Origin: Actinomycetota bacterium
Lineage (GTDB): Bacteria > Actinomycetota > Actinomycetes > Nanopelagicales > Nanopelagicaceae
Assembly: GCA_009700025.1 (NCBI GenBank)
Contig: WLMW01000010.1
Location: forward strand, 1 to 33,194
Length of the DNA: 33,194 nucleotides
Direction: 5' to 3'
The notes under the pieces are model-generated. The model had not been told where the DNA came from. It was given only the letters and a program-made list of their open reading frames with translations, and did no database searches. Position 1 is the first letter of the stretch, and the number at the start of each line of letters is the position of its first letter. Below are positions 17,643 to 32,961 of this stretch, piece after piece. The translations under genes and the position numbers were made by a program.

Positions 17643-18134
17643 CTATGAAGTCAGAAGATAATCAGCAAAGGTGCGAGTTGCGTCACCCTTAAAGTGTTTC
17701 TCCTGATCTATCTGCCACCGCCGCATCTGAGCTTCTATTTCAAAGCCATCTCTATTCAGAACACGGGCTAAGCCGATTTCAGGTTCCACGTCAAGCCAAT
17801 ACAGCGTTGCACCTGCGTCTCTGACTACTTTTTGACCGGAACCAACACCTTCAATAATAAGGATATCCGTGGGTTCGTATGTGCGTGAAGAGTCAAAAGA
17901 GTTGTTCGCCCAGTTATAAATTGGAACCGTGTGTTGAAGGCGAGCAGAAAAGGCCTCAACTATCTTGGCAAGAGTTACGGTTAAATCTTGACTCAGTGGA
18001 TTTGTCCATCCAGCATAAAGATCATCCATGTGGATGACATGGAGAGACTTCTCCTTAGAAAGATCTATCTGTAACTTCGCAGCTAAAGTAGTTTTGCCAG
18101 CACCGGCAGGACCATCAATGGCTATAAGTGTCAT
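17643..18134 (-). CDS. Small P-loop kinase, uridine kinase-like; candidate thiamine/pyrimidine salvage kinase from operon context
   Basis: IAIDGPAGAGKTTLAAKL (Walker A), HMDDLYAGW, LIIEGVGSG. ORF extends to 18161; the internal ATG at 18134 gives MTLIAIDGPAG. Overlaps the end of the riboswitch-controlled pnuT-like gene. Confidence 0.7.
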   Translation of the reverse strand: MTLIAIDGPAGAGKTTLAAKLQIDLSKEKSLHVIHMDDLYAGWTNPLSQDLTVTLAKIVEAFSARLQHTVPIYNWANNSFDSSRTYEPTDILIIEGVGSGQKVVRDAGATLYWLDVEPEIGLARVLNRDGFEIEAQMRRWQIDQEKHFKGDATRTFADYLLTS

Positions 18135-18690
18135 TCCAGCGCTTCCATCCGAGAATCGCAATTAACGTGAAAGCAAAATACAACACCGCCGTAAACCAAT
18201 AACCAAGTACCGCATATTGCACCGTTCCTGCTGCATCTACGATAAGCCAAACAACCCATGACTCAGTTTTTTCATAGACCATCAGAATCTGAGCAACCAG
18301 ACTTGCTACCAGTAAAAATGCATCTGACCATGTTGCTGCTGCACCGATGCGGGCTAGTACTGGGGTAAGTAGAGAAACTGAAACAATCGTTGCAACTGCC
18401 CATAACGCTCTATTGCGCGCAGAAAGTGCTCCAGGTTTAGCACCAGTTGGCGCCCAATCGCGCCAACCCCAGTAGGCGGCTAAAATAAAAATTATTTGAA
18501 GTGCGGCACTAGCAAATAAGTCAGCCTGATAAAAAAAGATCATGTACAAAAAGCTACTTGCTGCCCACCAAGGCCATGTGATGCGCTGTCCGGTTGTACC
18601 AAGCAACACACCTACAAATGAAACCACTGCTGACAAGAGCTCAAGGATTGAAACGTCATAGCCCCAAGCACTAAAAAGAATAGTTGACAT
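18115..18690 (-). CDS. pnuT: PnuC-family vitamin transporter, probable thiamine transporter PnuT
   Basis: PnuC-like fold: WPWWAASSFLYMIFFYQADLFASAALQIIFILAAYWGWRDW and SWVVWLIVDAAGTVQYAVLGYWFTAVLYFAFTLIAILGWKRW. A TPP riboswitch lies immediately upstream. Confidence 0.85.
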   Translation of the reverse strand: MSTILFSAWGYDVSILELLSAVVSFVGVLLGTTGQRITWPWWAASSFLYMIFFYQADLFASAALQIIFILAAYWGWRDWAPTGAKPGALSARNRALWAVATIVSVSLLTPVLARIGAAATWSDAFLLVASLVAQILMVYEKTESWVVWLIVDAAGTVQYAVLGYWFTAVLYFAFTLIAILGWKRWNDTYSH

Positions 18691-18696
18691 ACATAA

Positions 18697-18782
18697 TTCC
18701 TTTCCAAATCCGCATTACCGGATTGGTCAAACGGTCGGTCTGAATCTCAGACCCTCTCAGCCTTTGGCGGCTCCCGTGCGTC
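18697..18782 (-). ncRNA. TPP (THI-element) riboswitch aptamer
   Basis: Minus strand reads ACGGGAGCCGCCAAAGGCTGAGAGGGTCTGAGATTCAGACCGACCGTTTGACCAATCCGGTAATGCGGATTTGGAAAGGAA. It has the conserved GGCTGAGA core, a perfect GGTCTGA/TCAGACC hairpin, a CCAATCCG...CGGATTTGG stem with GTAATG loop, and terminal AGGAA that doubles as the SD. Confidence 0.92.
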
Positions 18783-18800
18783 ATAGAGTAGCGTTAACCT

Positions 18801-19121
18801 GTGTTGAAGTTTGGGTATTTAGCGATGATTATCTTCACTGTCGTTGGCTCATTTTGGCTTGAGATTTTTTTGAAGGTGGGAGTTTTAAGAAGATTTAAGC
18901 GGGCTTTTAAGGCAATTGCGCCTATAGCTCTCCTCTTCATTGCTTGGGATGCCTATGCAATACGCAGTGGACACTGGCGCTTTGATGATCAACAGATTCT
19001 TGGAATTTATGGCCCATTTTGTATTCCGGTTGAGGAGTACTTGTTTTTCATTGTTGTTCCATTTGCGGCGATCATGACTATTGAAGCGGTACGAACCGTC
19101 AAGAAACATTGGCAGATTTAA
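18801..19121 (+). CDS. crtYc: Lycopene cyclase heterodimer subunit, CrtYc type
   Basis: WDAYAIRSGHWRFD...GIYGPFCIPVEEYLFFIVVPF, typical CarR/CrtYc/Yd domain; GTG start. Confidence 0.9.
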   Translation: MLKFGYLAMIIFTVVGSFWLEIFLKVGVLRRFKRAFKAIAPIALLFIAWDAYAIRSGHWRFDDQQILGIYGPFCIPVEEYLFFIVVPFAAIMTIEAVRTVKKHWQI

Positions 19122-19426
19122 CTATGACATATACGCAAATTGCAATCATCGCAGTTGCATGTGCAGTCATCTTTGATTTTTATATCACTAGGAGTCGATT
19201 ATTGAGGCGTAGAGTTTTCTGGACTTCCTATGCGATTATTCTGCTTTTTCAGTTAGTCACTAATTGGTGGTTGACTTCACGAAATATTGTTATGTATCAC
19301 CCAGATGCAATCATCGGAATACGAATAGCATCTGCCCCAGTTGAGGACTTGCTTTTCGGTTTTGCTTTAGTGCTCGGGATCTCAACTAATTGGATACGAC
19401 TAGGCGCTTCAGAAAAGCAGCACTAG
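19109..19426 (+). CDS. crtYd: Lycopene cyclase heterodimer subunit, CrtYd type
   Basis: LVTNWWLTSRNIVMYHPDAIIGIRIASAPVEDLLFGFALVL; overlaps crtYc. Confidence 0.9.
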   Translation: MADLTMTYTQIAIIAVACAVIFDFYITRSRLLRRRVFWTSYAIILLFQLVTNWWLTSRNIVMYHPDAIIGIRIASAPVEDLLFGFALVLGISTNWIRLGASEKQH

Positions 19427-28378: not shown

Positions 28379-29344
28379 TTAGTTCAGATCCGAATAGAAA
28401 CCAATACTATCTCTACGAAGCCGCGCAACCATTTCGTTATAGGCAGGGATAAATTCAGGATCCTTAATTTCTTCTCGCCAGCGACCCATTCTTGCAGCGG
28501 ATGGTTGCATCCGTTCGTGCAAAAAATCCGCCATCTGTGGAGAATCTTCAATCTTAAGAAAAGTCAGAAGCGAATTATAAGTCTCAGTCGATTTTTGGGA
28601 CACGAGCTCTTCGATTGAAATTGTAAGTTGTTGATCTTTAGGTACTCGTGATAGCGAAGAATGACCGGCTCTTATTCGCTTTTCAAACCACTCAATTCCT
28701 TCTAGGGCAGTGGTAGGTCCCCAGTCCTTAGTTAGCAATGAAGCGATTGTATCTCTCGGATCACGGACCATATTAATGAAAAGAGCGGTCGGATAAAGCT
28801 GAAAGAGGCGGTGAGCATTTGGAATATTCATAGGTGTCGTGTCAATCCAGAATTTTTCACCCCTATTATTACTTTGATGATTGATGAGTTGAATGAGTAA
28901 TTTTCTCGCTGCTTTTACTTTATTTCGGAAAACGCTTACTTTAAATTCACTGAAAGAGGAATCAAATTCTTCACGGGTAATGCCAGAGAGCAATCCACGT
29001 CCATGTGGAGGTGGCGCATCGATATCCCACCAGGTTGAATTGATTTTCGCCTCTAAGGCAATTAGAGCATTTCCAACCTTTTCTCTCTCACGAATTTTGC
29101 GATCACGTCTGGTCCGCAAGTTATAAAAGGGGATAGGATTATTTTCTTTAGGCGGCGCGAACTGAGAACCAAAGGTAAGATCTAGAAGTCCACCAGCGTT
29201 CGTTGTAAATTTCAATTCAATAGGAAGGCTAGCCCGGATAGCAGGGTGATTGTCGAGTAAGTCAGCGATAATAGTTGTTCCACTTCGACCTGTTCCGCCG
29301 ACAAAAATCATTATCGGCGTACGACTTTGATTCTCAATTCCCAC
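28379..29344 (-). CDS. Sulfotransferase family protein (paralog 1)
   Basis: FVGGTGRSGTTIIADLLDNHP (5'-PSB loop), FINMVRDPRDTIASLL (3'-PB motif); GTG start. Confidence 0.88.
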   Translation of the reverse strand: MGIENQSRTPIMIFVGGTGRSGTTIIADLLDNHPAIRASLPIELKFTTNAGGLLDLTFGSQFAPPKENNPIPFYNLRTRRDRKIREREKVGNALIALEAKINSTWWDIDAPPPHGRGLLSGITREEFDSSFSEFKVSVFRNKVKAARKLLIQLINHQSNNRGEKFWIDTTPMNIPNAHRLFQLYPTALFINMVRDPRDTIASLLTKDWGPTTALEGIEWFEKRIRAGHSSLSRVPKDQQLTISIEELVSQKSTETYNSLLTFLKIEDSPQMADFLHERMQPSAARMGRWREEIKDPEFIPAYNEMVARLRRDSIGFYSDLN

Positions 29345-29350
29345 TCGCTC

Positions 29351-29356
29351 AGAATA
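29351..29356 (-). promoter_or_regulatory. Candidate -10 box (TATTCT) for leaderless sulfotransferase 1
   Basis: Minus strand TATTCT-gagcga-GTG: -12..-7 from the start codon. Confidence 0.45.
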
Positions 29357-29436
29357 TCCTTGAAACTCTTGTAAACTGACAGGAAACTCTCAGCAAAAAA
29401 CGTCTGTGGTGCTGGCAGATAACTCACGGCCACCAT

Positions 29437-29442
29437 TAGCCT
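29437..29442 (+). promoter_or_regulatory. Candidate -10 box (TAGCCT) for leaderless sulfotransferase 2
   Basis: TAGCCT-caagac-ATG: -12..-7 from the start codon. Confidence 0.45.
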
Positions 29443-29448
29443 CAAGAC

Positions 29449-30375
29449 ATGAATTTGACGCCTATTTTTTCAGGTGGAAGTGGTCGGTCTGGAACGACAA
29501 TCATCATCAATTTACTGGATAAGCATGAGTCATTTAAGGCGAGCCTGCCTCGGGAGATTAGATTTCTTACTGACAGGCTTGGTCTCTTGGATCTAAATTA
29601 TGTAAGACCGTACCCTTTTGAGTTATCAATCAGACACATTCTCACCCGCTCCGCCTTAATGACATTACGGGTTACCAAGAGCGGTAAAAGAGGTTTATTT
29701 CTTTCGAGGATGCAGGATTATTGGTGGTCAACAGAAGGAAAAAATGGGAAGCCCCGTGGCTTAGTGCAAAGTATTGCTAAAAATGAACTTGAAAGAATCC
29801 TTGAAGAATTCAACAAGTCCCCAAAGAGCGAGTTAGAAAAAGCATCTTCTCAGCTATTTTTTGACATAGCGAATTCACAAATAAGTAAACCTGGAATCCG
29901 ATACTTTGGAGATTCGACACCAGCAAATATCACAAATTCTCAATACATCAAACAACTTCTCCCTACTTCGAAGTTTATTAATATGACTCGAGATGGTAGA
30001 GACGTTGCATTCTCAATTTCTAAACAACCTTGGGGACCGAATAACCCAGTGGAGTGTCTTGAGTTCTGGAAAAAAAGGTTACTAAGTGGGGTAAGTGCAT
30101 TAGAAAAAATTGACAGAGATTCTTGGATTGAAATCCGAATTGAGGAACTTGTTGAGCAAAAGCGTGATGAGACTTATACAAGACTGTCAAATTTTTTGGA
30201 TTTACCAGAATCAATCAAAATGAGAGATTTTTTTAATTCCACAGTAAATGTTGAGAATATGCATAGTGGAACTTGGCAATTTGCGTTACCGTCACCACAT
30301 CAATTCAACGCTAGATACTCAGAAATACTAAAAGAATTGAGCGATGAAGGAATTAATTTTATAAAGTACTATTGA
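29449..30375 (+). CDS. Sulfotransferase family protein (paralog 2)
   Basis: FSGGSGRSGTTIIINLLDKHE, FINMTRDGRDVAFSISKQPWGP; colinear similarity with the 28379..29344 product. Confidence 0.87.
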   Translation: MNLTPIFSGGSGRSGTTIIINLLDKHESFKASLPREIRFLTDRLGLLDLNYVRPYPFELSIRHILTRSALMTLRVTKSGKRGLFLSRMQDYWWSTEGKNGKPRGLVQSIAKNELERILEEFNKSPKSELEKASSQLFFDIANSQISKPGIRYFGDSTPANITNSQYIKQLLPTSKFINMTRDGRDVAFSISKQPWGPNNPVECLEFWKKRLLSGVSALEKIDRDSWIEIRIEELVEQKRDETYTRLSNFLDLPESIKMRDFFNSTVNVENMHSGTWQFALPSPHQFNARYSEILKELSDEGINFIKYY

Positions 30376-30385
30376 AACCCTCTGA

Positions 30386-31141
30386 TCAACCGTTTATTAC
30401 ACGAATTCCATTAAAAAGAATAATTGCTATTGAGACACAAATTGCTAGTGGTTTCTTAGGTAATTTACCAACTAAACGAGCAGCCAATGGAGCTATTAGG
30501 GTTCCACCGAGCGCAAGCCCACCTACAACACTCCAGTCAACATCAATACGAGAAAGATTTGCAATAAAACCGACACTTGCAGCTAGGGCAACGATGAACT
30601 CTGCCGCGCTTACTGTTCCTATGACCTTACGTGGCTCAGTTTTAGTTGTTGCTAAAAGTGTTGGCGTCACTATTGGTCCCCAGCCCCCGCCACCTGATGC
30701 ATCTACAAAACCACCCGTAAAGCCAAGATAGGTCAGAAAATTCGGATTTTTTATCTCAATTAAGTTAGCGCTGTCAGGGCTTTGAAAAATGTTGCGATAG
30801 AGCAAAAGGAATCCTAAAAAAAGTAGCAGCGTGGATATGAAAATTCTTCCATTAGAAGAGTCTATAAACGAAAGAAAGGTAGCGCCGCAGAGAGCTCCTA
30901 CTCCACCTGGAATTGCCAGGCGCTTGAGAATTTTCTTATCGACATTCTCAGCATGCCAATGTGATGCTCCTGAAGCTAACGTTGTCCCAATCTCTGCAAT
31001 GTGTACAGCTACAGAAGCTACTGATGCAGTTGCTCCAAGAGTGAGCAGAAGCGTAGAACTTGAGAGACCAAATCCCATTCCTAAGGAACCGTCAATAAGT
31101 TGTGCTATCGATCCTGCGAGTGCAAATAACATCCAACTCAT
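30386..31141 (-). CDS. TauE/SafE family sulfite/organosulfonate permease-like protein
   Basis: Polytopic membrane protein with GSLGMGFGLSSSTLLLTLG and GFTGGFVDASGGGGWGPIVTPTLL motifs; ATGA overlap with cysNC. Confidence 0.9.
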   Translation of the reverse strand: MSWMLFALAGSIAQLIDGSLGMGFGLSSSTLLLTLGATASVASVAVHIAEIGTTLASGASHWHAENVDKKILKRLAIPGGVGALCGATFLSFIDSSNGRIFISTLLLFLGFLLLYRNIFQSPDSANLIEIKNPNFLTYLGFTGGFVDASGGGGWGPIVTPTLLATTKTEPRKVIGTVSAAEFIVALAASVGFIANLSRIDVDWSVVGGLALGGTLIAPLAARLVGKLPKKPLAICVSIAIILFNGIRVING

Positions 31142-32961
31142 AAGATTAACTTTAACAGTGCGTTAACATTTTCAGAGACAGCGAGTTTGCCATCTAAGAC
31201 AATATTGGGATTTGTTGGAACCTCGTACTCCTGTCCAAGGCCGGTCAAGTTAGGAATCTCTCCAGCCGCCGCTTTCTTATAAAGGCCTTTTGGATCTCGA
31301 GCTTTGCAAATTTCAATTGGTGTGTCTACCCACGCTTCAAAGAATTCGCTCTCATCAAAGATAGATCGAGCTTGGTCACGATCACTCTTGAAAGGACTTA
31401 CAAGAGCAACGATGACATAAAGACCGGCATCAATCATTAATTTTGCAATTTCTGAAGTACGGCGTACATTCTCAGCACGTTCTTCTGGGGTAAATCCTAA
31501 ATCCTTGTTGATTCCTAATCGTAGATTATCGCCATCTAAAACATATGAATGAATTCCGAGATTGAAAAGTTTCTTCTCAAGCTCATTTGCAATTGTAGAT
31601 TTTCCAGAACCAGAGAGTCCAGTGAGCCAAAGAACCCCTGGCTTTTGATGCTTCATATGCGCCCGCTCGGTTTTGCCAACTTCATAGTTATGGTGCGTGA
31701 TGTTACTTCCTCTGCGCAATACATGGTCAATCATTCCAGCGCCAACAGTACGGTTTGAGGCTCTATCAACAAGAACGAAATTACCAAAATCTCTTGATTC
31801 TTTGTATGGCAGTAAAGCTAAGGCGGTATCAGTAGCAATTTCGATAGAACCAATTTCATTCATTAAAAGTGTTGTGGCTGAATTGTGCTCTCCGCTATTT
31901 ACTTCAATTTTATGTCTTATCTTGGTCACGATTGCTGGGGTAGTGGTGGTTCCGGCAATTAAAATATATGAGCGGCTATGAATGAGTGGATTCTCATCTA
32001 GCCAAACGATATTTGCCACATAACGATCACTAGAGATTAGTTCTTCGGTTGATTTAACAATTAAGTCTCCTCTAGTGGCGTCAATTTCAGGTTCAAGAAC
32101 AAGAGTGATTGCGGATTCATTCACAGCTTTTTCCATATCGCCGTTGAAAGTTACAATCCTAGATATTTTGGCAGTTACACCACCTGGAAAAGTCTTTATT
32201 GTTTCGCCAACAGTAAATTCACCATCATGAACTGTTCCGGAAACTCCGCGGAAGTTCTCGGCTCTAGAGATACTCTGTATCTGCAAGCGTGCACCGCGAT
32301 CTATTGTCGCTTTGGGCGCCCAATCTTGAATTGCTTGTATGAGAGTAGGACCTTTGTACCAGTCCATAAAGGTACTTGCATCCACAACGTTATCTCCAGC
32401 TAATGCACTCATCGGTATAACTGTTGAATTTTTGATGTTCAATCTATGGAGAGCATCTGAAATTTCAAGTGAAATGCTTTGGAAGATTGATTGCGAATAA
32501 TCTTTGGCGTCAAGTTTATTCACTGCAATAATGACATGACTCACACCCATTAAGGCACAGATTGTTAAATGCCTAAGGGTCTGTGTTCGGACACCTCTTG
32601 TGGCGTCTACTAGCACCAGTGCAATATCAGCACGTGATGCGGCTACTGCCATATTGCGTGTGTATTGTTCGTGTCCAGGTGCATCAGAGATGATCAAGCG
32701 CTTACCGTTGAGCAAGTTCATAGATCGATAAGCAACGTCGATAGTTATTCCTTGCTCACGTTCGGCTTCAAGGCCATCAGTGAGTAGGGAAAAGTCGATT
32801 TCACCGGTTGGAATAGTTGAACCACTTCGGCGTATTTTACGTGTGGCATCGATACTGTCATGAGGAACGCTATCTGTTTGAACTAAAAGTCTACCGATTA
32901 AAGTACTTTTTCCATCATCAACGCTGCCACATGTTAATAAACGAATAATAGATTTGGTCAT
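31138..32961 (-). CDS. cysNC: Bifunctional sulfate adenylyltransferase subunit 1 / adenylylsulfate kinase
   Basis: CysN: TCGSVDDGKSTLIGRLL, DAPGHEQYTRNM, NKLD. CysC: LWLTGLSGSGKSTIANELEKKL, LDGDNLRLGINKDLGFTPEERAENVRR. Confidence 0.96.
   Translation of the reverse strand: MTKSIIRLLTCGSVDDGKSTLIGRLLVQTDSVPHDSIDATRKIRRSGSTIPTGEIDFSLLTDGLEAEREQGITIDVAYRSMNLLNGKRLIISDAPGHEQYTRNMAVAASRADIALVLVDATRGVRTQTLRHLTICALMGVSHVIIAVNKLDAKDYSQSIFQSISLEISDALHRLNIKNSTVIPMSALAGDNVVDASTFMDWYKGPTLIQAIQDWAPKATIDRGARLQIQSISRAENFRGVSGTVHDGEFTVGETIKTFPGGVTAKISRIVTFNGDMEKAVNESAITLVLEPEIDATRGDLIVKSTEELISSDRYVANIVWLDENPLIHSRSYILIAGTTTTPAIVTKIRHKIEVNSGEHNSATTLLMNEIGSIEIATDTALALLPYKESRDFGNFVLVDRASNRTVGAGMIDHVLRRGSNITHHNYEVGKTERAHMKHQKPGVLWLTGLSGSGKSTIANELEKKLFNLGIHSYVLDGDNLRLGINKDLGFTPEERAENVRRTSEIAKLMIDAGLYVIVALVSPFKSDRDQARSIFDESEFFEAWVDTPIEICKARDPKGLYKKAAAGEIPNLTGLGQEYEVPTNPNIVLDGKLAVSENVNALLKLIL

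Follow-up and report, generated by a model that had tools for sequence, protein, structure and literature searches.

A variant TPP-type aptamer apparently lacking the known pyrophosphate pocket and P1 upstream of a putative thiamine uptake operon in acI actinobacteria

Introduction

Few RNA switches have been studied as well as TPP riboswitches, whose recognition of the pyrophosphate via J4/5 is regarded as their defining act; certain other riboswitch classes are known to have changed their ligand. In the solved aptamer, residues U39-A43 of J3/2, the U59-A80 pair of P4, G60 of J4/5, and C77 and G78 of J5/4 are nearly invariant; J3/2 residues contact the aminopyrimidine ring, and G78 contacts the pyrophosphate (PMC3764141). 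Pyrophosphate recognition was reported to be mandatory for canonical switching, with a KD of 50 uM for thiamine versus 50 nM for TPP (PMC4112796).

Kang et al. 2017 (PMC5301498) report thiamine auxotrophy in four acI strains, which lack nearly all enzymes of de novo synthesis and salvage, and describe a THI element before the acI pnuC gene, for which a role as the thiamine transporter PnuT was proposed; a second acI pnuC is described as FMN-linked. Both the PnuT proposal and the THI element were already known for acI from that source. What appears to be new at the locus studied here is a conserved TPP aptamer variant without the pyrophosphate pocket and without P1, together with a candidate thiamine kinase.

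Results

A sequence-only reading of this DNA, which belongs to an acI/Nanopelagicaceae genome, had placed a near-complete THI element before a PnuC-family gene and had pointed to the RF00059 model on the minus strand. A default Rfam scan of the whole window (the entire stretch of DNA analysed, 33,194 nucleotides) gave no match at the gathering score. A local scan of 301 bases with an E-value threshold matched RF00059 at 18787-18685; the match had an E-value of 1.9e-5, but its 35.0 bits were below the curated gathering cut-off of 54.3 bits. Because the default scan was empty and the E-value scan positive, the negative result at the gathering score was misleading for the element at 18778-18697. 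This element was the only TPP-like match in a genome-wide search and scored 103.5 bits with our own model R1. On the plus strand, CRISPR-DR10 gave a weak match (0.16), which was dismissed as chance. The element has the following parts.

18697..18778, minus strand: TPP-type aptamer of trimmed form, with P2, P3, J3/2, P3a, J2/4, P4-P5, L5 and the Shine-Dalgarno sequence; P1 absent
18774..18777, minus strand: 5' strand of P2, ACGG, pairing with 18731-18734; three of the four pairs invariant
18731..18734, minus strand: 3' strand of P2, CCGU, with its pairing seen in the 30-sequence alignment
18755..18771, minus strand: P3 (GCC/GGC) and the J3/2 pyrimidine sensor CUGAGA (18760-18755), the latter invariant in 30/30 sequences
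18737..18753, minus strand: P3a hairpin GGUCUGA/UCAGACC, 100% paired, with double-sided changes in 4 of 6 counted pairs
18704..18726, minus strand: trimmed P4-P5, CC-x-R-UCCG / CGGA-Y-yz-GG, with L5 GUAAUG (18718-18713) and no J4/5 internal loop
18697..18701, minus strand: Shine-Dalgarno sequence AGGAA, directly past P4 and two A residues

The hairpin positions given by the sequence-only reading were exact (P3a, 18753-18747/18743-18737; P4/5 stem, 18726-18719/18712-18704). AGGAA indeed lies at the 3' edge of the aptamer; it is separated from the ATG at 18690 by 6 nt (18696-18691), and the 7 nt stated earlier hold only when counted from the end of AGGA. A GGAAAGGA-like Shine-Dalgarno sequence was present in nearly all relatives.

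The fold of the single sequence was uninformative (z -1.23), and an alignment was required. The element was found directly upstream of the pnu gene in 81/81 loci, that is, in the window and in 80 relatives whose proteins are 47-87% identical and which nearly all belong to acI/Planktophila-type actinobacteria by title or gene content. Among 30 non-redundant sequences, 97.0% of the pair cells were standard (shuffles, 90.0, sd 0.6), and double-sided changes occurred in 10 pairs versus a shuffle mean of 4.5, a number reached by 0/500 shuffles. An independent fold computed alongside the covariation alignment was counted as further support. The presence at all loci and the pairing and covariation in the non-redundant set argue that the element is not due to chance. 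The model built on the 30 sequences matched 190/201 family genomes and 16/16 genera; a few of the weak matches among them (about 1e-4 to 1e-9) represented canonical elements before other genes.

The window element carried the pyrimidine sensor (P2, P3 and U39-G40-A41-G42-A43 of J3/2). The fourth P2 pair was A-U or G-C in 23/30 sequences. L5 contained UAAU in every acI row, a loop of the UNAN type, and docking of L5 on P3 is proposed for the trimmed aptamer. Of the pyrophosphate sensor, in contrast, U59-A80, G60, C77 and G78 were all gone. The THI element claimed before the PnuC-family gene is present, but its description as near-complete was wrong on the decisive point, since the pyrophosphate sensor is remodelled.

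In 40 of the 50 parsed aptamers, most of which precede other thiamine genes, 7 or 8 nt lay between CC and L5 in the left strand (11 as parsed in one row); this strand nearly always started with UG, and CGN nearly always preceded AGG in the right strand. In the pnu-linked aptamers of the family, the left strand had 6 nt and read x-R-UCCG or close to it, and the right strand read CGGA-Y-yz. R and Y were paired in 80/80 parsed loci (A-U 32, G-C 24, G-U 23, U-A 1) and in 30/30 non-redundant sequences, so that a covarying pair fills the former loop. P4-P5 formed an 8-bp helix that had at most one bulge. The base x can pair with y or z in every combination but one; a single x-y or x-z pairing in the bulge was considered, and neither fitted all rows (x-y in most, x-z in most of the remaining ones). 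In L159, L160, L163, L167 and L169, which come from other genera, P4-P5 was an unbroken 8-bp helix, and its variants CCAGUUCG/CGAAUUGG, CCAGUUUG/CAAAUUGG and CCAGUUCG/CGAACUGG kept the pairing. The 6-nt left strand, the covarying R-Y pair and the unbroken helices therefore indicate that the trimmed aptamer lacks a pyrophosphate pocket of the known form, while its pyrimidine sensor is invariant.

Intact aptamers were found in family genomes without this pnu gene (L142, L145, L148, L150-L153, L157, L170), before genes which we take, from their translated sequences, to be thiB, thiC and thiO. In a related family, the orthologous syntenic locus L111 (crtB, lycopene cyclase pair, pnu, kinase, pknB) carried a nearly intact aptamer that was one J4/5 base short and scored 66.9 bits. 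Because the syntenic aptamer is nearly intact, the trimmed form looks derived from a TPP riboswitch. Intermediate forms, in which just the A is missing from J4/5, were seen upstream of thiC and of this pnuT family (L145, L152, L111).

The trimmed-left-strand pattern was detected in 13/397 genomes of the phylum and the control pattern in 0; some of the 13 matches were ordinary J4/5 with a short P5, and others were trimmed. Trimmed aptamers CCGUUCCG/CGGAGCGG and CCGUCCCG/CGGGGCGG of a distant family, f84, are followed by what looks like thiT, and that of f33 (L182) precedes an apparent thiO. A trimmed aptamer of f14, missed by the pattern and found via Rfam, stands before a permease that we presume from its sequence to be cytX-like. 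Every trimmed element found elsewhere thus preceded thiamine genes, which we take by sequence recognition to be thiT, thiO and cytX. The idea that trimmed aptamers are exclusive to transporters was ruled out by the thiO case L182; trimming appears to have taken place in several lineages, chiefly but not solely at uptake genes. No description of the trimmed form was found in the mostly open-access literature searched, and its novelty is provisional.

Two side observations were made on these aptamers. At L164 and L166 (f14), the aptamer before the CytX-like permease has a one-sided J4/5 (ACCAGCCGG / CCGGCAUGAGG) that is off the TPP consensus. The thiB-like leaders of L142, L150, L151, L153 and L157 contain, past the aptamer, a CCCGUG-like stretch complementary to CACGGG of P2, and this could possibly serve as an alternative pairing for the switch.

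The sequence-only reading had recognised no convincing P1 stem. This absence was real: the P1 pairs were broken in the RF00059 alignment, and the position of a conserved -10 box predicts a transcript start at P2.

18785..18790, minus strand: predicted -10 box TACTCT of the pnuT promoter, with the transcript start at about 18778-18776, at P2

The motif TANNNT was found 13-15 nt upstream of CGGGAG in 80/81 loci (at exactly 14 nt in 64), and the columns flanking it were poorly conserved among the 81 loci. Because the predicted start, which we infer to lie at P2, is within about two bases of this helix, no 5' strand would be left for P1. Control is likely to be exerted by the folded aptamer directly covering the Shine-Dalgarno sequence.

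Several neighbours in the window were also recorded. Two short lycopene cyclase domain genes (18801-19426, plus strand) start on the opposite strand at a distance of about 110 bases from pnuT, and the 5' end of this pair adjoins the pnuT promoter. Farther away, two divergent and mutually similar genes, sulfotransferase-type by look, occupy 28379-30375, beside an apparent fused sulfate adenylyltransferase / APS kinase gene at 31138-32961.

Two genes on the minus strand follow the element.

18115..18690, minus strand: pnuT candidate, 191 aa, PF04973 (Pfam, 120 bits; profile match to NmPnuC 4qtn, 2.8e-14)
17643..18134, minus strand: kinU, a P-loop kinase of uridine-cytidine kinase fold and candidate thiamine kinase, overlapping pnuT by 20 nt

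A phmmer search of the PDB with the PnuT sequence alone gave no match, whereas the profile search reached 4qtn. As had been anticipated, automatic annotation would name the protein PnuC: it scored 62.4 bits with TIGR01528 (NCBIfam; cut-off, 42.45), a model that does not separate PnuT. In a tree of 38 proteins, with no experimentally proven PnuT among them, the window protein fell into a clade (100/99) whose members all have a TPP-type element. NR-type PnuC of E. coli and of NAD-salvage phages lay outside this clade, as did the PnuX-like paralogs of the same family, seven of which have FMN riboswitches, and there was no grouping of the window protein with proven or NAD-linked PnuC. To our knowledge, no member of this Actinobacterial PnuT clade has been assayed. 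The tree check thus came out as the sequence-only reading had expected, with the window protein outside both NR-type PnuC and PnuX, and its preference for PnuT over PnuC gained support, although Kang et al. 2017 had already put forward this idea for acI. A role of the window gene as PnuT in thiamine uptake is supported by these comparisons.

A second PnuC-family gene of the window's genome (L204, G000:C34:27597-28175) grouped with the FMN-riboswitch PnuX paralogs. No FMN riboswitch above the gathering score was found there in the stretch examined.

The kinU gene adjoins pnu on its downstream side in 79/80 relatives. The AF2 model of KinU had a pLDDT of 95.8, and its best Foldseek matches were uridine-cytidine kinases (1uej; E 1.2e-10, TM 0.78, 19% identity). 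No NR kinase was among the best 50 listed fold matches, which spoke against an NR-kinase reading of KinU.

Thiamine enzymes were sought in 25 genomes, of which most are acI and many consist of a single contig. Searches for TPK (PF04263) were negative in all of them (0/25), whereas ThiL was found in 25/25 (24 over the cut-off). ThiE exceeded the cut-off outright in just three genomes, G114, G260 and G147, all with canonical or near-canonical TPP elements; in G211 there was one marginal match. Since ThiL was present and TPK and ThiE were absent in the sampled acI genomes, a kinase making TMP for ThiL would be expected. KinU is a candidate for the thiamine kinase of this thiamine-to-TMP step, which was judged open on the searches for ThiL, TPK and ThiE.

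Discussion

Given the observed anatomy, conservation and gene order, and ThiL without TPK or ThiE in the sampled acI genomes, pnuT and kinU probably form an operon for thiamine uptake and trapping under a TPP-derived riboswitch that lacks P1 and the J4/5 pocket. The best reading is that the variant riboswitch represses this operon, its ligand being TPP, TMP or thiamine. The RNA would begin at P2. When one of these compounds is plentiful, it would bind the kept pyrimidine pocket, L5 would dock on P3, and the folded aptamer would cover the Shine-Dalgarno sequence just past P4, so that less PnuT and KinU would be translated. When the vitamin is scarce, the aptamer would loosen and PnuT would admit thiamine, which KinU would phosphorylate to TMP and ThiL would turn into TPP. 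In this scheme, we infer the ligand, the direct occlusion, the thiamine specificity of PnuT and the substrate of the kinase. An argument against it is that TPP binding by the known mode should not survive without G60, C77 and G78.

Because the pyrophosphate sensor is remodelled, TPP specificity cannot be transferred from the RF00059 family to the window element. The switch seems to keep the half that grips the ring and to have lost the known pocket for the phosphate tail, and it may sense another form of the vitamin than the studied switches do. The chances are nearly balanced that the trimmed aptamer still senses TPP, with the phosphates held otherwise, e.g., by Mg2+ and the backbone of the shortened P4-P5, and that only the architecture is new. 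TPP is the usual end-product signal, the trimmed form stands before thiO in f33 (L182), where TPP feedback would be expected, and the intermediates minus just the A of J4/5 precede thiC and the pnuT family. However, G60, C77, G78 and U59-A80 are all gone although near-invariant in the class (PMC3764141), and pyrophosphate recognition was reported to be mandatory for switching (PMC4112796).

It is a serious, if somewhat doubtful, alternative to the operon that kinU is a mere neighbour, a nucleoside kinase of other function outside the thiamine pathway. In relatives without pnuT, kinU occupies the same position between crt genes and pknB, and part of the pnuT-kinU linkage may therefore be positional. 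A thiamine role argued from adjacency to pnuT alone was weakened by this position; it was kept, at lower confidence, because of L162 in G137 (family f39), where pnu-kinU occurs with a trimmed aptamer in a 3.1-kb locus in which neither crt nor pknB genes were found. The open thiamine-to-TMP step likewise argues against a mere neighbour and for a kinase belonging to the operon.

Sensing of unphosphorylated thiamine or TMP, the operon's substrate or product, is possible but less probable than sensing of TPP; some other ligand is the third option. The invariant pyrimidine sensor and the replacement of the pyrophosphate pocket by a covarying helix would suit it, as would the unbroken 8-bp P4-P5, which occurs in several genera and also upstream of thiT in a distant family. 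The trimmed form is moreover found mostly at uptake genes, and intact aptamers of the same family precede thiB, thiC and thiO. On the other hand, the affinity of canonical aptamers is about 1000-fold lower for thiamine than for TPP (PMC4112796), the thiO case suits TPP better, and some intact aptamers likewise precede importers (thiB). The boldest combination is rather unlikely as a whole: a variant TPP class with a plain helix in place of the pocket that senses thiamine or TMP and controls an operon for uptake and a thiamine kinase of a new family in bacteria that rank among the most abundant in freshwater and, trimmed in a similar way, in further actinobacterial lineages.

That the window gene encodes a genuine nicotinamide riboside PnuC, with an NR kinase beside it, is very unlikely. 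The TIGR01528 cut-off was passed, the fold of KinU resembles uridine kinases, and a NadR-like kinase (PF13521), the usual partner of NR transporters, takes the place of kinU after pnuT in L111 (2209-2748) and L081 (1854-2471). This kinase may substitute for KinU or may point to NR salvage, and is possibly a second kind of thiamine kinase. However, the tree sets the protein apart from NR-type PnuC, all copies examined have a TPP-type element, and the gene is also present in acI strains that can make NAD de novo (PMC5301498). That the riboswitch is a decayed, non-functional remnant, as its low RF00059 score, absent P1 and lost key residues might suggest, is scarcely credible in view of its retention in 81/81 loci and 190/201 genomes, its compensatory changes and its invariant CUGAGA and UAAUG.

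The preferred reading, a variant riboswitch over a thiamine uptake and trapping operon, concerns a thiamine-auxotrophic group that is dominant in many lakes, where the route of uptake, sensing and trapping decides competition for a scarce vitamin. A pocketless form kept across a lineage poses the questions of what minimal aptamer is needed and whether the ligand changed within the class, and KinU offers a candidate for the missing thiamine-to-TMP step.

The window element resembles the TPP riboswitches of RF00059 in P2, P3, the optional P3a, J3/2 CUGAGA, L5 UAAU, the junction A residues and the thiamine genes downstream. It differs from them in having no J4/5 internal loop, a P4-P5 about two pairs shorter, no U59-A80, G60, C77 or G78, no P1 and a score below the gathering cut-off. 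With the acI pnuC of Kang et al. it shares the gene, the element and the proposal of thiamine uptake; the altered pyrophosphate sensor, the missing P1 and the kinase are undiscussed in the accessible parts of that paper (PMC5301498). Like other PnuT transporters, the window protein belongs to PF04973, has a TPP-type element upstream and comes from thiamine-auxotroph hosts; unlike them, it falls into an Actinobacterial clade, and its gene shares an operon with a uridine-kinase-like kinase. Finally, the proposed two-step route from thiamine via TMP to TPP without TPK parallels ThiK-ThiL salvage in E. coli, except that ThiK is an APH-type kinase, whereas KinU has a uridine-cytidine kinase fold.
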